From NCBI GenBank assembly GCA_019428855.1, contig JAHYJV010000011.1, positions 1 through 35,321 on the forward strand: DNA of 35,321 bases, read 5' to 3'. Source of the DNA: Patescibacteria group bacterium (GTDB taxonomy: Bacteria > Patescibacteriota > Minisyncoccia > JAHIHE01 > JAGLIN01). A model generated the notes under the pieces. That model was not told the DNA's origin. It worked only from the letters and a program-made list of their open reading frames with translations, and ran no database searches. The position numbers were made by a program, and so were the translations under genes. Positions 4,068 through 22,870 of the stretch are shown here, piece after piece (the first letter of the stretch is position 1; each line of letters opens with the position of its first letter).

Positions 4068-4090
4068 ATAAAAAAAATAATCTTATATTG

Positions 4091-5962
4091 ATGAAAGCCA
4101 AAACAAAAATAATTACCAAACCAGATATGTTGATTGAGATGTCTTGGGAAGTATGTAATAAAGTCGGCGGAATTTTTACGGTGCTGAGTTCAAAGGCAAA
4201 ACAAATGCAAAAGCGTTATCGAAATTCTTATTGTTTAGTAGGACCATATTTTGTTGATAAAAGTAGAGGTGTTTTTAAAGAGGAGCCTATTCCAGAAATT
4301 TATAAACAAGTTTATTCTGACCTAAAAGATGTCGGGATAATTCTTCATTTCGGAACTTGGGTTATTAAGGGAGAGCCGAAAGTTATTTTAGTTGATTTTA
4401 GTAATTTTTGGTATAATAAGGATGATATAAAAAAACAAATGTGGGAAAGCTTTGGAGTGGATTCGATAAGTAGTGCTTATGATTTTGATGAGCCAGTTTT
4501 GTGGAGCTGGACGGTTGGTATGTTAGTTGAAAAAATAGGTCAAGTACAACAAGACAAAAATATCGTGCTTCATGCTCATGAATGGCTTTCTGGAGGAGCA
4601 ATTTTATATCTCAAAAAAAATAATTCAAAAATATGTTCTGTTTTTACAACTCATGCTACAACCCTTGGCAGAACTATTGCAAGTCACGGCTTGGATTTAT
4701 ATTACGAATTAGATAAAATCAAGCCGACGGAAGAGGCGTATAAATATGGAGTTCAGGCAAAACATAATCTCGAAAAGGTATCTGCAGAAAATGCGAATGT
4801 TTTTACAACAGTAAGTCAAATTACTGCTTTAGAAGCCAAATATATTTTGGGTAAGGATGTCGATGTAATTTTGCCTAATGGTCTCGATATGTCTGAATTT
4901 CCGAGTTTCGAAGAGACAGCCTTGAAGCATAAACAATATCGCAATAGATTAAGAAGATTCGCTCTATATTATTTCTCGCCCTATTATAAAATTGATCTTG
5001 AGAACACTTTATTCTATTTTACTGCTAGTAGATATGAGTTTCATAACAAAGGTTTAGACATTTTCATTGAGTCTTTAGGAAAGCTCAATGAAAAAATGAA
5101 AAAAAACAATAGTAAAAAAAATATCGTAACTTTTTTTTATGTACCAGCTCAAATGACGAACATTAATCCAGACATTATTGAAGCCCGCGAATTTTTCAGG
5201 GATATTAAAGATTTATTGGAAGAGGAAGAGGATGATATAAAAGAAAATTTACTTTATACAATTTCGGCAGAAGAAAAAATAAACAAGAAATCAATATTTT
5301 CTGAAAGCTTTAATCTAGCTATGAAAAGTAAGCTTTTGAAACTAAAGTCAAAAAATGGTCCAGCTCCGCTCTCAACACATGAAATTTCTCAAGCAGAAAA
5401 TGATTCAATTTTGCGAGCTTTTAAAGCAGCTGGTCTGGAAAATAAAGAAGAGGACAAAGTTAAGGTTATTTTTTATCCAATATACTTAACTGGTGCAGAT
5501 GGCTTGAGTGACCTTGATTATTATCAAAGTATCCAAGCTTGCCATTTAGGTGCTTTTCCTTCTTATTATGAACCATGGGGTTATACTCCTTTGGAAACTG
5601 CCGCCCTCGGAGTTGCTTCCTTGACGAGCAATCTTTCTGGATTTGGAAAATATTTTTACAGCAATCTTCACGACAAAAAGAATCCCGGAATATATATCTT
5701 AGATATCGAAAATGAAAAAAGAGAAGACATTCTAAGAGAATTTGTCGATATTTTGTATAAGTATACGTTGTTTACCAAAAAACAAAGAATCGAAAATAAA
5801 ATGCAAGCACGGAAGGTGGCCTTTATGGCAGACTGGGAAAATTTTGTTGATTATTATGTTAAAGCACATGGTTTAGCTCTAGAAAGAAGTCAGAGTCAAA
5901 TCGTTTCAAGAGAAAAAACCTGTCAACAAGAGTCTAAATCTTATAAAAAAACCACATCTTGA
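4091..5962 (+). CDS. Glycogen synthase, GT3 (eukaryote-like) family
   Basis: A retaining glucosyltransferase predicted to extend alpha-1,4-glucan from UDP-glucose. It belongs to GT3, the animal and yeast glycogen synthase group, rather than the usual bacterial GT5 GlgA. The signs are MSWEVCNKVGGIFTV near the N-terminus (about 18-32), HAHEWLSGG (161-169), TTHATTLGR (186-194), the sugar-nucleotide motif ASRYEFHNKGLD (312-323), and PSYYEPWGYTPLE (490-502) with the catalytic Glu, followed by LTSNLSGFG. The length of 623 residues fits GT3. I chose the ATG at 4091 rather than the in-frame TTG at 4088. The last 25 residues are polar. The rpoB promoter's -35 box overlaps its stop codon. No debranching or branching enzyme gene is adjacent. 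Confidence 0.85.
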   Translation: MKAKTKIITKPDMLIEMSWEVCNKVGGIFTVLSSKAKQMQKRYRNSYCLVGPYFVDKSRGVFKEEPIPEIYKQVYSDLKDVGIILHFGTWVIKGEPKVILVDFSNFWYNKDDIKKQMWESFGVDSISSAYDFDEPVLWSWTVGMLVEKIGQVQQDKNIVLHAHEWLSGGAILYLKKNNSKICSVFTTHATTLGRTIASHGLDLYYELDKIKPTEEAYKYGVQAKHNLEKVSAENANVFTTVSQITALEAKYILGKDVDVILPNGLDMSEFPSFEETALKHKQYRNRLRRFALYYFSPYYKIDLENTLFYFTASRYEFHNKGLDIFIESLGKLNEKMKKNNSKKNIVTFFYVPAQMTNINPDIIEAREFFRDIKDLLEEEEDDIKENLLYTISAEEKINKKSIFSESFNLAMKSKLLKLKSKNGPAPLSTHEISQAENDSILRAFKAAGLENKEEDKVKVIFYPIYLTGADGLSDLDYYQSIQACHLGAFPSYYEPWGYTPLETAALGVASLTSNLSGFGKYFYSNLHDKKNPGIYILDIENEKREDILREFVDILYKYTLFTKKQRIENKMQARKVAFMADWENFVDYYVKAHGLALERSQSQIVSREKTCQQESKSYKKTTS

Positions 5963-13312: not shown

Positions 13313-13340
13313 AGCTCCACTCTCCTGGGTGGAGCTTTTT
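13313..13340 (+). terminator. Intrinsic terminator of the rpoBC operon
   Basis: AGCTCCAC (13313-13320) pairs perfectly with GTGGAGCT (13329-13336) around an 8-nt loop, followed directly by a T-run. It separates rpoC from the downstream membrane-protein gene. Confidence 0.9.
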
Positions 13341-13690
13341 GTATGAGCAATTATTTTCTCAGAAATAAACCCGCAAGCACAATCCTATAAAAACTAATCA
13401 ATTACTTTTATCCAGAAGAACTATAAACAACGCTGGACAATCAAATATGTAATTTAATTAATTTCAATTAATAGACTATTGAGATAAATTAGTATATAAT
13501 ATTAGTAAGCAGAGTAATTCAGATGTTATTACAATCTCAAATCCGCACAGGGTATCCAGTCTCTGAAAATAAATTTAAAAGATCGTCTTGAATAATCCAA
13601 AAATATCAGGCGATAATAGATAGAAAATATACTATATTTTTTCGCTTTATTTCATAAAATTTTACAAATAATCCATTTAAAATTAAAAAT
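13341..13690. other. 350-bp intergenic region between rpoC and the NusA-like/VIT gene
   Basis: No open frame of note and no tRNA could be found. The region contains the candidate promoter at 13472-13500, followed by a leader of about 180 nt. Weak pairings in it (for example TCCAG/CTGGA around 13410-13440) are too short to claim as structure. Confidence 0.5.
13472..13500 (+). promoter_or_regulatory. Candidate promoter of the NusA-like/VIT membrane protein gene
   Basis: TAGACT (13472-13477, 4 of 6 consensus bases) and a perfect TATAAT (13495-13500) are spaced by 17 bp. Because the rpoBC terminator lies upstream, this gene needs its own promoter, which supports the call. Confidence 0.5.
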
Positions 13691-16600
13691 ATGGGAAAAG
13701 AATTTGAGTATTTATTGGATACCGTTCTGAATCGCGGTATAAAACATTTTGAAATAATTTCTGCGATTCAAACAATGGTTTTACAAGAATATACCACTCG
13801 TTATCCAGAAAATCCGGGTGGAGTTGAAGTGATTGTTAATGAAAATACTGGAGATGTACGCTTAATGCTAAGCAAGACTGATATAACTCCAGCTGATTTT
13901 TCAACCATAGCAAGTCAAATTGCACTACAGGTCTTGATTCAAAAATTAAAGAAAAGTGAAGATGAAATTTCACAGCACTCACAAATTTCTCCATCTTCTC
14001 CAGCATTTCAAGTTCCCAAAGAATCAGAGAGTGATATTTACATGGGGGCTATCAATTGGGTTTTAAGCTTTTTGTTTTGGGCATATAATGGTTTTTATAT
14101 TGTGTTGATATCATTATATTTCCTTTATTCCACATTTTCCAAAAGCTATCGAGAGGAGATTGGAAGTTTATTTCTTGATGGTGGCTTAGCAAGAAGATTT
14201 ACCGTGCTGATAATTTTGGCAGTTCCTTGTCTTAGTTTTTACATCGCCTACAAATTGCAAAAAACAAAAAAAGAATTGCAAATCAATAAAATTATTTTTC
14301 AGTTTGAATTGCCACTGATTATTATTTTGATATTTTCACTTTTTGTTCTCGAAAATGCGCCTTTGGCAGTTTGGTTTTTTATTAACATAATTATTTTTTT
14401 TATTGGCATTTTTTTCCTAGATTCTTTAAAAATAAAAACTTATTCTCTGCGACAAAAATGGGTAATTTTCATCTTAAAACAAGCAATTCTAATTTCAGCA
14501 GTATATCTCATCTTCTTATATTTGTTCATCATTCCTATATTAATTAAAACTTCTATATCCTATATCTCGGTTCATTTTATTTTTGCAGACATCTTCGCGA
14601 TATTTCTCAGATTGATTTTAATTATTTTATGCGGTTTATTGTTAGCTTTTCCTTTCTTGATTACATATCTGATTTTCAAATCATTTCGTTATGCTCAACT
14701 GGATTTGGCAAAAGAAGTTAGTACCGAAAAGTTAAAGAGAGCTAATATTATTATAGCCCTAGCTTGGATTTTTCTTGTTTTTGTTTTTTCATATCAACCA
14801 AATTCTGGTCTGGTTCAAAAACTTGAAGATTATAAATCTTTGGAAAATTTTGAACAAAGAGAAGATATTGCTCGGCAAATTATTGAAAAAAAATCAAAAA
14901 TTGAAAAGGAATTAACAGAAATTTCTAAAGAGAAAAGTTCGTATAATATTGATAAAAATAATGATTTTCTGAAGAATGCCTATCGAAAGGAGTTTAAATT
15001 TGATAATACTTTAGCTGGGATTATTCAGAAAGCATTTATCGAGCTTGCTTATCCTTTCGTATATCAGGGAACTTATGACAGATATGGGGAAGCGCTTTTG
15101 AATTACAAATATATCTTTGGGTATGAGTTCGGACAAGAAGGAAAAATTATAAATCAATCAAAAAAAATTCAGCTTGTTTCTCGCAAGATTCATGCCGTTA
15201 CGGAACATCAAGGAGCGTTGGCCACTGTCAGTATTGAGGAAGAGTTTAAAAATACTGTTACTGCAAATCAGGAAGTGGTTTATGAATTCTCGCTTCCAGC
15301 CAATGCCGTAATTATGGATTTGAAGCTTGGTGCCGATTTAGAGTTCGATGGTGTGATTGCTCCGCGTGGGGCCGCTGGAAAAGTTTATCAGGCTCAACTT
15401 GTTCAAAGACGGGATCCTGCCATCTTGGAACAAACTGGACCAAGACAATATCGTTTACGAGTATTCCCTATTCCGAGCAAGAATGATCGAACAACTCTCG
15501 GTGGTAAAAATCAAAAAGTTAAATTCTCCTATGTCACTGAAATAACTTCAAAAGGATATGCCTTGCCGATTTATTCGAAGAAGCAAAATATCAACATTGA
15601 TGATTCGACAGAGATATCTTATTATTTAGATGCTCAGTCTGTTGCTACTAATGGCGATAGTCCATATGTGTTCAACTCATCGTTCACCAATGATAATTTA
15701 TGCAATCTATCAACTGTCTTGGAAGTTAAAGAAAAACCAGTTGATTATATGCCACTTCAGCTTGCAGGCGAAGCAGAAATTAAACCAGTTGATAATATTC
15801 TTGCTCAATTAATTCCATATAAAAATTTCACGGAGCTTAATGCTAGCTATCGATGTGACAAGGAGTTTGGTATTAACTTAATGGGTGCCTTGAAAAATTC
15901 AAAATTTGCTGTTCTTTTTGATGCATCTTATGAGAACAAGGATAATTTGTTCTTGGATGATTTTATAAACAATCTCAAAACTGAAGAAAACTTGCTCAAA
16001 AATAATACAATCGATTTTTATCTATTTAATGATATGCTGAGTAAAAAGAGAACACTGGTTAAAGATCAATTAGATAATTTATCTGATGTGATATATTTTG
16101 GAACAAGTGAGTGGACGAGTCAAATTAAAGAAATCGAAAATCAATATGATTTTATCATTGTCTTTACTTTAGATAGTAAGGTTTTAACTCAGAAAGACAA
16201 TTTAAGTGCTAATAATAAAGCTCCGTTATATATCATTCACAAGGACAATATTGTTCCTCCTTATTCAGCTGAAGTGTCAAATTATATAATGCAAAGTGGA
16301 GGAAAAGTTGCTCTTAATCTCAATGAGGTGATTTCACATTATGTTTTGACAAAACAATTGCGATTTAAAAATTCAGCAAGTCATATCGCATTTAACCCTT
16401 ACTGGATTGTTTCTGTTCCTAATTATGCCCAGAGTTATTTTGATCCTCAAAAGGCTTTAGATTTCTTTTATGTGAAAACAAATGAGAGTGATCCACTACT
16501 GTATTTTATTGATAAAGCCTATCTTGATAAAGTGCTAAGTTCTTATCAAGGTAGCTTGGAAAATGATTTAAAACTTGCGGATAGTTTCCACTATTTTTCG

Positions 16601-16933
16601 CAAAAGAATCACATTGTGTCGCCATATTCTTCACTCTTGGCTTTGGTAAATAAACAGCAAATGCAGGAATTAAAAAATGCATCTCAAGATCGTGATCGTT
16701 ATTCATATGAAATTCCAGATACGCGTAGTACAACTCTTCAGCAGAGCGGTAAAATCGAAGGATGGGGCTCTAAAGAAGCACCCCAATACATTCCAAAAGA
16801 TAATGGGCCTGTTGCAATTAGATATGTGTCTTGGTTTATTATTGTTAATGTCGGCATTATTATCTTGGCGATCGTTGTTCGCTTAATCCTCAGATATCGA
16901 AAAAAGTATTTGAAAAAAACTCGAAAAAGATAG
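13691..16933 (+). CDS. Multidomain membrane protein: NusA-N-terminal-like domain, polytopic membrane region, VIT-like domain, C-terminal anchor
   Basis: A 1080-residue protein of unusual make-up. Residues 1-93 resemble the RNA-polymerase-binding N-terminal domain of NusA: VEVIVNENTGDVRLM (45-59) matches the VEVxIDRxTG strand, and DFSTIASQIALQVLIQKLKK (69-88) matches NusA's DFGRIAAQTAKQVIIQ helix. The roughly 40-residue middle of that domain is missing. About seven or eight hydrophobic helices follow (122-367). A charged coiled-coil-like segment leads to a VIT-like domain (about 495-620) with FSLPANAVIMDLKLG and RRDPAILEQTGPRQYRLRVF, as in the large membrane proteins of PEP-CTERM/exosortase systems. 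A VWA-like fold may follow (about 735-850), but its metal site is degenerate (FDASYENK). The C-terminus is one helix (1045-1067) and a basic tail. Start chosen at the first ATG; own promoter and terminator. Function unknown. Confidence 0.75.
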   Translation: MGKEFEYLLDTVLNRGIKHFEIISAIQTMVLQEYTTRYPENPGGVEVIVNENTGDVRLMLSKTDITPADFSTIASQIALQVLIQKLKKSEDEISQHSQISPSSPAFQVPKESESDIYMGAINWVLSFLFWAYNGFYIVLISLYFLYSTFSKSYREEIGSLFLDGGLARRFTVLIILAVPCLSFYIAYKLQKTKKELQINKIIFQFELPLIIILIFSLFVLENAPLAVWFFINIIIFFIGIFFLDSLKIKTYSLRQKWVIFILKQAILISAVYLIFLYLFIIPILIKTSISYISVHFIFADIFAIFLRLILIILCGLLLAFPFLITYLIFKSFRYAQLDLAKEVSTEKLKRANIIIALAWIFLVFVFSYQPNSGLVQKLEDYKSLENFEQREDIARQIIEKKSKIEKELTEISKEKSSYNIDKNNDFLKNAYRKEFKFDNTLAGIIQKAFIELAYPFVYQGTYDRYGEALLNYKYIFGYEFGQEGKIINQSKKIQLVSRKIHAVTEHQGALATVSIEEEFKNTVTANQEVVYEFSLPANAVIMDLKLGADLEFDGVIAPRGAAGKVYQAQLVQRRDPAILEQTGPRQYRLRVFPIPSKNDRTTLGGKNQKVKFSYVTEITSKGYALPIYSKKQNINIDDSTEISYYLDAQSVATNGDSPYVFNSSFTNDNLCNLSTVLEVKEKPVDYMPLQLAGEAEIKPVDNILAQLIPYKNFTELNASYRCDKEFGINLMGALKNSKFAVLFDASYENKDNLFLDDFINNLKTEENLLKNNTIDFYLFNDMLSKKRTLVKDQLDNLSDVIYFGTSEWTSQIKEIENQYDFIIVFTLDSKVLTQKDNLSANNKAPLYIIHKDNIVPPYSAEVSNYIMQSGGKVALNLNEVISHYVLTKQLRFKNSASHIAFNPYWIVSVPNYAQSYFDPQKALDFFYVKTNESDPLLYFIDKAYLDKVLSSYQGSLENDLKLADSFHYFSQKNHIVSPYSSLLALVNKQQMQELKNASQDRDRYSYEIPDTRSTTLQQSGKIEGWGSKEAPQYIPKDNGPVAIRYVSWFIIVNVGIIILAIVVRLILRYRKKYLKKTRKR

Positions 16934-22150: not shown

Positions 22151-22870
22151 TTATAACATTGTATCTTCAAGAATTTCATCTAATTTTTCCTCTAGGTCTT
22201 CAAGTTTAATTTTCTTTTTTCTGGTCTTGGTAGTTTTCTTTTCTTCCTTCGGTTCTTCTTCCTTAGGCGCTTGAACTTCTTTAACTTCAAGTGGAGCTTT
22301 AATTTCCTTAATATCTTCTTTCGGCGCTGGAACTTCCTTTTTATCTTCTCCCGCCTTTATCTCCTTTGCCTCTTCTTTCGGTGCTGGAACTTTTTTAATT
22401 TCAGTGAGTACTTTTTCTTTCTTTGTCTCCTCTTTCTTTTTTGCTATTTCCTCTTTATCTCCTTCGGCTTTTTTCCGTGCAAAAAGTTTTTGAAGTTGTT
22501 TTAATTGCTCGATATTCATGGGATCTTCTTGAACGATAATATGTCTTAGAACATTTTTGTTTCTTAAAAGATATTTATTTAGTTCTTGTAATATTTTTCC
22601 TTCACTACTAAAATTAAAAAGACAATAAAATCCAAATCTATTCTTTTCAATTGGATAGGCCAACCTTTTTTTGATTATAGGAAGGTCTTGTAATTCAACT
22701 GCTTCCTCTTTAGACACTTCTGTTTTAAGTAGAAATGGATGGTCAAGCAGTGTCTGGAGTTTTTTTCCTCCAAAATTTTCAATTTCTTTTTCAATTTCCA
22801 CAAAAGTTTTTTTAATCTCTGCCCCCGTCATAGTTGACGGCAGAATGTAAAGTAATTCGTAATTATTCAT
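22151..22870 (-). CDS. rpsF: Small ribosomal subunit protein bS6 with a long charged C-terminal extension
   Basis: Residues 1 to about 98 are an ordinary bS6 ferredoxin-like fold (MNNYELLYILPSTM; FGFYCLFNFSSEGKILQELNKYL; RHIIVQ), which binds bS18 and 16S rRNA in the 30S platform. The protein then continues to 239 residues, more than twice the usual length. The extension is almost wholly Lys, Glu, Ala and Pro, with repeated P-A-P-K-E units at about 157, 180 and 203 (KVPAPKEEAKEI, EVPAPKEDIKEI, EVQAPKEEEPKE). It ends in a basic patch (KTTKTRKKK) and an acidic amphipathic helix (LEDLEEKLDEILED). The tail is probably disordered and surface-exposed; its role is unknown. First gene of the operon; no Shine-Dalgarno site. 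Confidence 0.95.
   Translation of the reverse strand: MNNYELLYILPSTMTGAEIKKTFVEIEKEIENFGGKKLQTLLDHPFLLKTEVSKEEAVELQDLPIIKKRLAYPIEKNRFGFYCLFNFSSEGKILQELNKYLLRNKNVLRHIIVQEDPMNIEQLKQLQKLFARKKAEGDKEEIAKKKEETKKEKVLTEIKKVPAPKEEAKEIKAGEDKKEVPAPKEDIKEIKAPLEVKEVQAPKEEEPKEEKKTTKTRKKKIKLEDLEEKLDEILEDTML

Follow-up and report, generated by a model that had tools for sequence, protein, structure and literature searches.

A headless NusA N-terminal domain joined to a VIT-domain membrane protein in Patescibacteria

What is a stretch resembling the N-terminus of NusA doing at the front of a predicted membrane protein? The question is raised by a gene that follows rpoC in a Patescibacteria group bacterium (assembly GCA_019428855.1). 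We analyzed the window, which is the whole stretch of 35,321 nucleotides of contig JAHYJV010000011.1, together with its genome (G000) and other genomes of the phylum. A first-pass annotation, made from the letters of the window, had proposed two functional readings: tethering of transcription to the membrane, or re-use of the NusA-like module as a binding domain. The gene and its parts are as follows.

13691-16933, forward strand: whole open reading frame, 1080 amino acids, ATG start, frame open
13691..13972, forward strand: residues 1-94, headless NusA-N-terminal-domain-like module of helix, helix, beta hairpin and long helix (Pfam, profile, AlphaFold2/Foldseek, dN)
13973..14044, forward strand: residues 95-118, variable and probably disordered linker (pLDDT about 30-45)
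14045..14815, forward strand: residues 119-375, seven predicted membrane helices; the TIGR02921 alignment begins here
14816..15175, forward strand: residues 376-495, helical segment preceding VIT (AlphaFold2 model, low confidence)
15176..15520, forward strand: residues 496-610, VIT domain that includes the blocks APRGAAGKVY and RRDPAILEQTGPRQYRLRVFPIP (Pfam VIT)
15881..16360, forward strand: residues 731-890, degenerate VWA-like domain with FDASYEN (matches of the full-length model; D744 and S746 invariant)
16751..16933, forward strand: residues 1021-1080, C-terminal tail that holds the membrane anchor, ends in basic residues, and lacks a PEP-CTERM motif (hydropathy, blastp)

The window protein is a real and unexpected joining of domains inside a known protein family. 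Above the cut-offs, Pfam reports only NusA_N and VIT, with no S1, KH1, or KH2 domain behind NusA_N, and NCBIfam places the protein in TIGR02921 (PEP_integral) at 210.9 bits, against a cut-off of 200. The domain assignments and the VIT/PEP-CTERM kinship given in the first-pass annotation were correct. Among the other fusion proteins scanned with TIGR02921, L072 scored 211.6 bits, over the cut-off, and L071, L074, and the truncated L010 scored 155-168 bits, under it.

Residues 1-94 are a NusA N-terminal domain without the head. NusA_N (PF08529 in Pfam; cut-off 23.8 bits) scored 26.7 bits when the whole protein was scanned, 35.7 bits with residues 1-100, and 34.1 bits in the genome search. Residues 14-60 and 62-92 are collinear with NusA in PDB sequences, and the two blocks whose likeness to NusA had been noticed at first sight, residues 45-59 and 69-88, both align collinearly with solved NusA structures. 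Single-sequence phmmer searches against the PDB gave weak E-values for NusA, and the identity was settled by profiles and structure. A profile of 27 compact NusAs detected all seven fusions then known at E-values of 4e-16 (the window protein) to 1.7e-7 (58.8 to 31.0 bits) and scored 49.8 bits on the eighth. A profile built from the fusions' own domains places NusA chains first in the PDB (6e-10 to 1e-8). The AlphaFold2 model of the domain, computed from an alignment of seven fusions only, without NusA sequences, is a helix-helix-strand-strand-helix fold with a pLDDT of 85.5, and the top four Foldseek matches in the PDB are all NusA (2mt4, E 1.1e-4, TM 0.72). Profiles and structure comparison thus both return NusA for residues 1-95, where the first-pass annotation had reckoned with the chance of no match. 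That the likeness is accidental, or that the domain is peculiar to this family and of different descent, might be argued from the failure of Pfam to call NusA_N in three of the divergent fusions (L072, L074, and L010, which is truncated). However, with the compact-NusA profile all eight fusions (31-59 bits) far exceed the 14.7 bits that was the top of 14,000 shuffled domains, and a model built without NusA sequences still puts NusA first, so that such an origin is extremely improbable. To our knowledge, the NusA N-terminal domain is normally met only in NusA. The window's genome has its own NusA as a separate gene on contig C23, and a NusA_N match elsewhere in the genome is present in all seven fusion genomes tested, in a NusA-length frame in six of them.

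Behind the linker, seven helices and, at the C-terminus, a single anchor are predicted from hydropathy, in line with the seven or eight helices first proposed, and this 7+1 pattern is the same in all fusions. We favor a topology, predicted from the helix count, the positive-inside rule, and loop charges, in which the N-terminus and the C-terminal tail lie inside and the VIT part outside. The anchor does carry the basic tail that had been described (9 K/R in 13 residues). The VIT-like region is a VIT domain by Pfam (PF08487; 52.9 bits over residues 499-601, cut-off 26.5) and is 76.5% identical to that of the homologue in G008. The MIDAS motif DxSxS of the part that follows is incomplete: D744-A-S746-Y-E keeps DxS and has no third Ser, and D744 and S746 are invariant in nine homologues. 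In the full-length AlphaFold2 model (mean pLDDT 67.5), the VIT and VWA-like parts mostly reach 75-90. Its top structural match is inter-alpha-inhibitor heavy chain 1 (655 columns, E 6.5e-12), followed by VWA domains. Pfam gives no VWA match on this protein, and the putative VWA fold behind VIT comes from these structural matches of a moderate-confidence model.

A T4SS pilin may be the source of the window protein's tail. By blastp against a very small database, it matches the N-terminal part of a T4SS_pilin on contig C38 of the same genome at 2e-6, and the tail of the G008 homologue does so at 8e-9. Locus L082 on this contig (G000:C38:20958-22665) encodes several small two-helix proteins in a row, and both of those scanned are T4SS_pilin (PF18895). 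The pilin at 22288-22665 has a GWGtKEsP...P...NLtNWilG stretch in common with the tails of the window protein and the G008 homologue. The fusions of the other class have tails that differ from that of the window protein.

The kinship with exosortase targets is visible in the relatives of the fusions. The window protein, whose end reads ...PKDNGPVAIRYVSWFII..., has no PEP-CTERM motif, and in the alignment (A6) VPEP occurs only in L085 and L089. No exosortase (PF09721) was detected in the window's genome at E<=0.01, and the fusion-only genomes tested, six in all, gave none. Relatives without the NusA domain are a second copy in G897 and the proteins of G750, G643, and G130. Exosortase was found in G897, G750, and G643, only in genomes that hold such a non-fused relative, and it is adjacent in two of them: the second copy of G897 and the relative of G750 each end in VPEP-CTERM and adjoin an exosortase gene, the latter XrtO-like at 236.8 bits, just below the cut-off of 250. 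At both loci (L085, G897:C3; L089, G750:C52), which belong to the second class, the VIT gene overlaps the start of the exosortase gene.

The search for fusions covered this phylum and gave eight proteins in eight genomes of two classes. Besides the window protein, one is the homologue in G008, of the same family and 60% identical, and six are from the second class, which may be Microgenomatia (G445, G836, G876, G897, G1055, and G1081). The NusA-like domain is present in all of them, which answers the question of its conservation raised by the first-pass annotation; the G445 copy is cut by a contig end. The G836 copy (L073, G836:C33) is interrupted by a frameshift, from an assembly error or in a decaying gene, and its frames were joined solely for the protein body comparison and the body tree. 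A scan of genome contigs with the single protein as query gave no relative; with the alignment as query it gave one, the same match as G008. The occurrence is patchy: 2/54 among the relatives (window included), 6/374 in the other class (non-fused included), and 2/57 in one order.

In a tree of the protein body (membrane and VIT parts), the fusions form one clade (100/99), within which the window pair is nested beside L071 (97/97). This nesting implies that the gene was transferred into the window's family, and from these sequences horizontal transfer is very likely. The domain tree again unites the fusions (99/98) and places them within the NusAs of the other class. Their stem of 2.6 changes per column carries a long-branch warning, and the exact place of the fusion domain among NusAs is uncertain because the alignment is short and this stem long. 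NusAs of the window's own class have a long insert, the head, between the beta hairpin and the last helix, whereas those of the second class lack it, as does the fusion domain (for example, DVTPAGFGRIAAQTAKQVILQKIREAEK versus DITPADFSTIASQIALQVLIQKLKKSE). As a class-level marker, the head insert is long and variable in NusA loci L001 and L041-L066 (window's class) and missing from L012-L038 (other class). M. tuberculosis and Planctomyces have NusA N-terminal domains of the headless kind (PMC4642336). The simplest history is that the fusion arose once in the other class, changed rapidly, and was then passed to an ancestor of G000 and G008.

The first-pass annotation had also tied the gene to its neighbor. 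It does follow rpoC, after a gap of 417 nt that holds two elements.

13313..13336, forward strand: terminator-like hairpin of 10 pairs, 6 of them G-C, then a T-rich tail, 40 nt behind rpoC
13472..13500, forward strand: promoter-like site TAGACT-17-TATAAT preceding the gene; weakly supported, with no clear enrichment of such sites relative to shuffles

As one hairpin of such kind was found in the scanned 4 kb versus 2.0 expected by chance, it is weighed mainly by its perfect stem and its position. In five relatives (G001, G002, G003, G005, and G007), rpoC is followed by ftsK, directly or after a small ORF, and among family members readable behind rpoC only the window and G008 have the VIT gene there. 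The fusions of the other class have unrelated neighbors, different in each genome, so that the position is not conserved in homologues. With a single pair behind rpoC, an intervening hairpin, and ftsK in the relatives, we regard the position as incidental and rejected the adjacency as a functional link. G002 has two rpoC matches (L103 and L106) of 72-74% identity on different contigs, from a duplicate rpoC or contamination. Within the window, 4088-5962 encodes a glycogen synthase of the PF05693 type (484.5 bits) in a genome of 0.98 Mb; this family is best known from eukaryotes.

Between the window protein and the G008 homologue, dN alone was used for comparison because dS is above 1. It is 0.17 for the NusA-like domain, 0.17 for VIT, 0.19 for the VWA-like part, 0.28 for the membrane part, and 0.80 for the linker. 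The first three are the slowest-changing parts, and the linker (29% identity over residues 91-118) and the C-terminal tail change fast. The NusA-derived domain is kept by selection, and its surface has been rebuilt. Alternatively, it might have no partner and act as a soluble cap in the cytoplasm that helps the protein to fold, insert, or stay stable. NusA is used in the laboratory as a solubility tag, and the domain is small, well folded in the model, and placed on a variable linker. However, non-fused relatives do without it, and few parts of the protein have a dN as low, a conservation beyond the needs of a mere cap, which makes this reading quite doubtful.

The rebuilding is visible residue by residue. 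Positions typical of the fold (F5, G16, Y34, G54, D64, T66, P67, F70, A74, and A78) are kept in all or nearly all fusions. The positions G71, R72, T77, and K79, invariant or near-invariant in NusA, are kept in 0/7 fusions each, and the NusA-conserved A29, A33, K36, Q84, R87, and E88 are nearly lost; these counts cover seven fusions, and the eighth was checked separately for Arg. R72 marks the Arg of FGRIAAQTAK, in the NusA-invariant [G/D]-R-[I/V] that opens the last helix. This Arg is found in 27/27 compact NusAs, in each of the five PDB NusAs of the alignment shown, among them the headless proteins of M. tuberculosis and Planctomyces, and in 0/8 fusions; its invariance argues for its importance.

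These losses bear on the possibility that the domain still binds the RNA polymerase beta flap tip and either holds transcription complexes at the membrane or puts transcription under the control of the surface head. The fold is that of the domain anchoring NusA to polymerase (PMC4642336, PMC8940904), and the domain lies on the predicted cytoplasmic side and is under selection. In E. coli NMR, the RNA polymerase surface is on the concave side, with Leu27, Leu31, Ile43, and Val45 affected (PMC4642336); since the equivalents of Leu27 and Leu31 in the window protein, I26 and V30, are still hydrophobic, some flap binding may persist. Against this, none of the eight fusions has the Gly-Arg of FGRIAAQTAK, most other positions invariant in NusA are missing from them too, the stem of the domain tree is long, and proximity to rpoC is not a conserved trait. 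The fusions also have no head, the part that touches the alpha CTD in E. coli (PMC7171158), though neither do headless NusAs. Because all fusions have lost NusA-invariant residues, and the stem branch is very long, the tethering of transcription first proposed is weakened, and re-use as a binding domain, the other early proposal, fits better. Judged from sequence, polymerase would be a possible partner of the fusion domain, less likely than another protein. Continued flap binding is unlikely, and slightly less likely still is a membrane dock in which the VIT/VWA head is linked via seven helices to a NusA-type domain, with this domain bringing in or controlling polymerase during transcription.

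We therefore prefer, with a probability of roughly 0.6, the reading that the window protein is a surface VIT/VWA protein, derived from an exosortase/PEP-CTERM system, in which the NusA domain is re-used as a cytoplasmic docking module. The starting point would be a TIGR02921-type surface protein, with an exported VIT and VWA-like binding head on seven N-terminal helices and an anchor at the C-terminus. A headless NusA domain, most likely copied from a NusA of the other class in the same phylum, would have been added to its cytoplasmic N-terminus in a single lineage, and this fusion lineage would have dropped the PEP-CTERM motif and the exosortase partner. The gene would later have reached the window's family by horizontal transfer and come to lie between rpoC and ftsK. 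We infer that the surface head binds and that, beneath it, the NusA-derived domain most likely docks to the membrane a protein other than the canonical RNA polymerase flap tip.

A partial literature search found no earlier report of a NusA and VIT architecture. In this clean case of re-use, a surface protein has taken over a domain of the core transcription machinery; at least eight genomes in two classes retain it, and the tree indicates movement from one class to the other. The fusions are also a branch of an exosortase-target family that left its sorting enzyme, and as a set they offer a test to tell the NusA residues needed for the fold from those that bind polymerase.

Compared with headless NusA of the PF08529 type (M. 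tuberculosis, Planctomyces limnophilus), the window domain has the same fold, the same two conserved blocks, and the same missing globular head. The window protein differs in having no S1/KH behind the domain, in being predicted to be membrane-bound, and in its lost Arg and other NusA-invariant residues. With the TIGR02921 (PEP_integral) family it has in common the seven N-terminal helices, the VIT block, and the C-terminal anchor, and it differs in its added NusA-derived N-terminus, the missing PEP-CTERM motif, and a genome in which no exosortase was found. Exosortase-linked VIT proteins (MSEP-CTERM TIGR04286, the XrtN targets TIGR04477, and here L085 and L089) are homologous to it in the membrane and VIT parts, whereas L085 and L089 have VPEP-CTERM-like ends beside their own exosortase and no NusA domain. 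The inter-alpha-trypsin inhibitor heavy chain is a secreted animal protein. It is 12% identical to the window protein, in which the MIDAS is degenerate, has the order of VIT followed by a VWA-like domain that is predicted for the window protein, and is the best structural match (PDB 6fpy, 655 columns).
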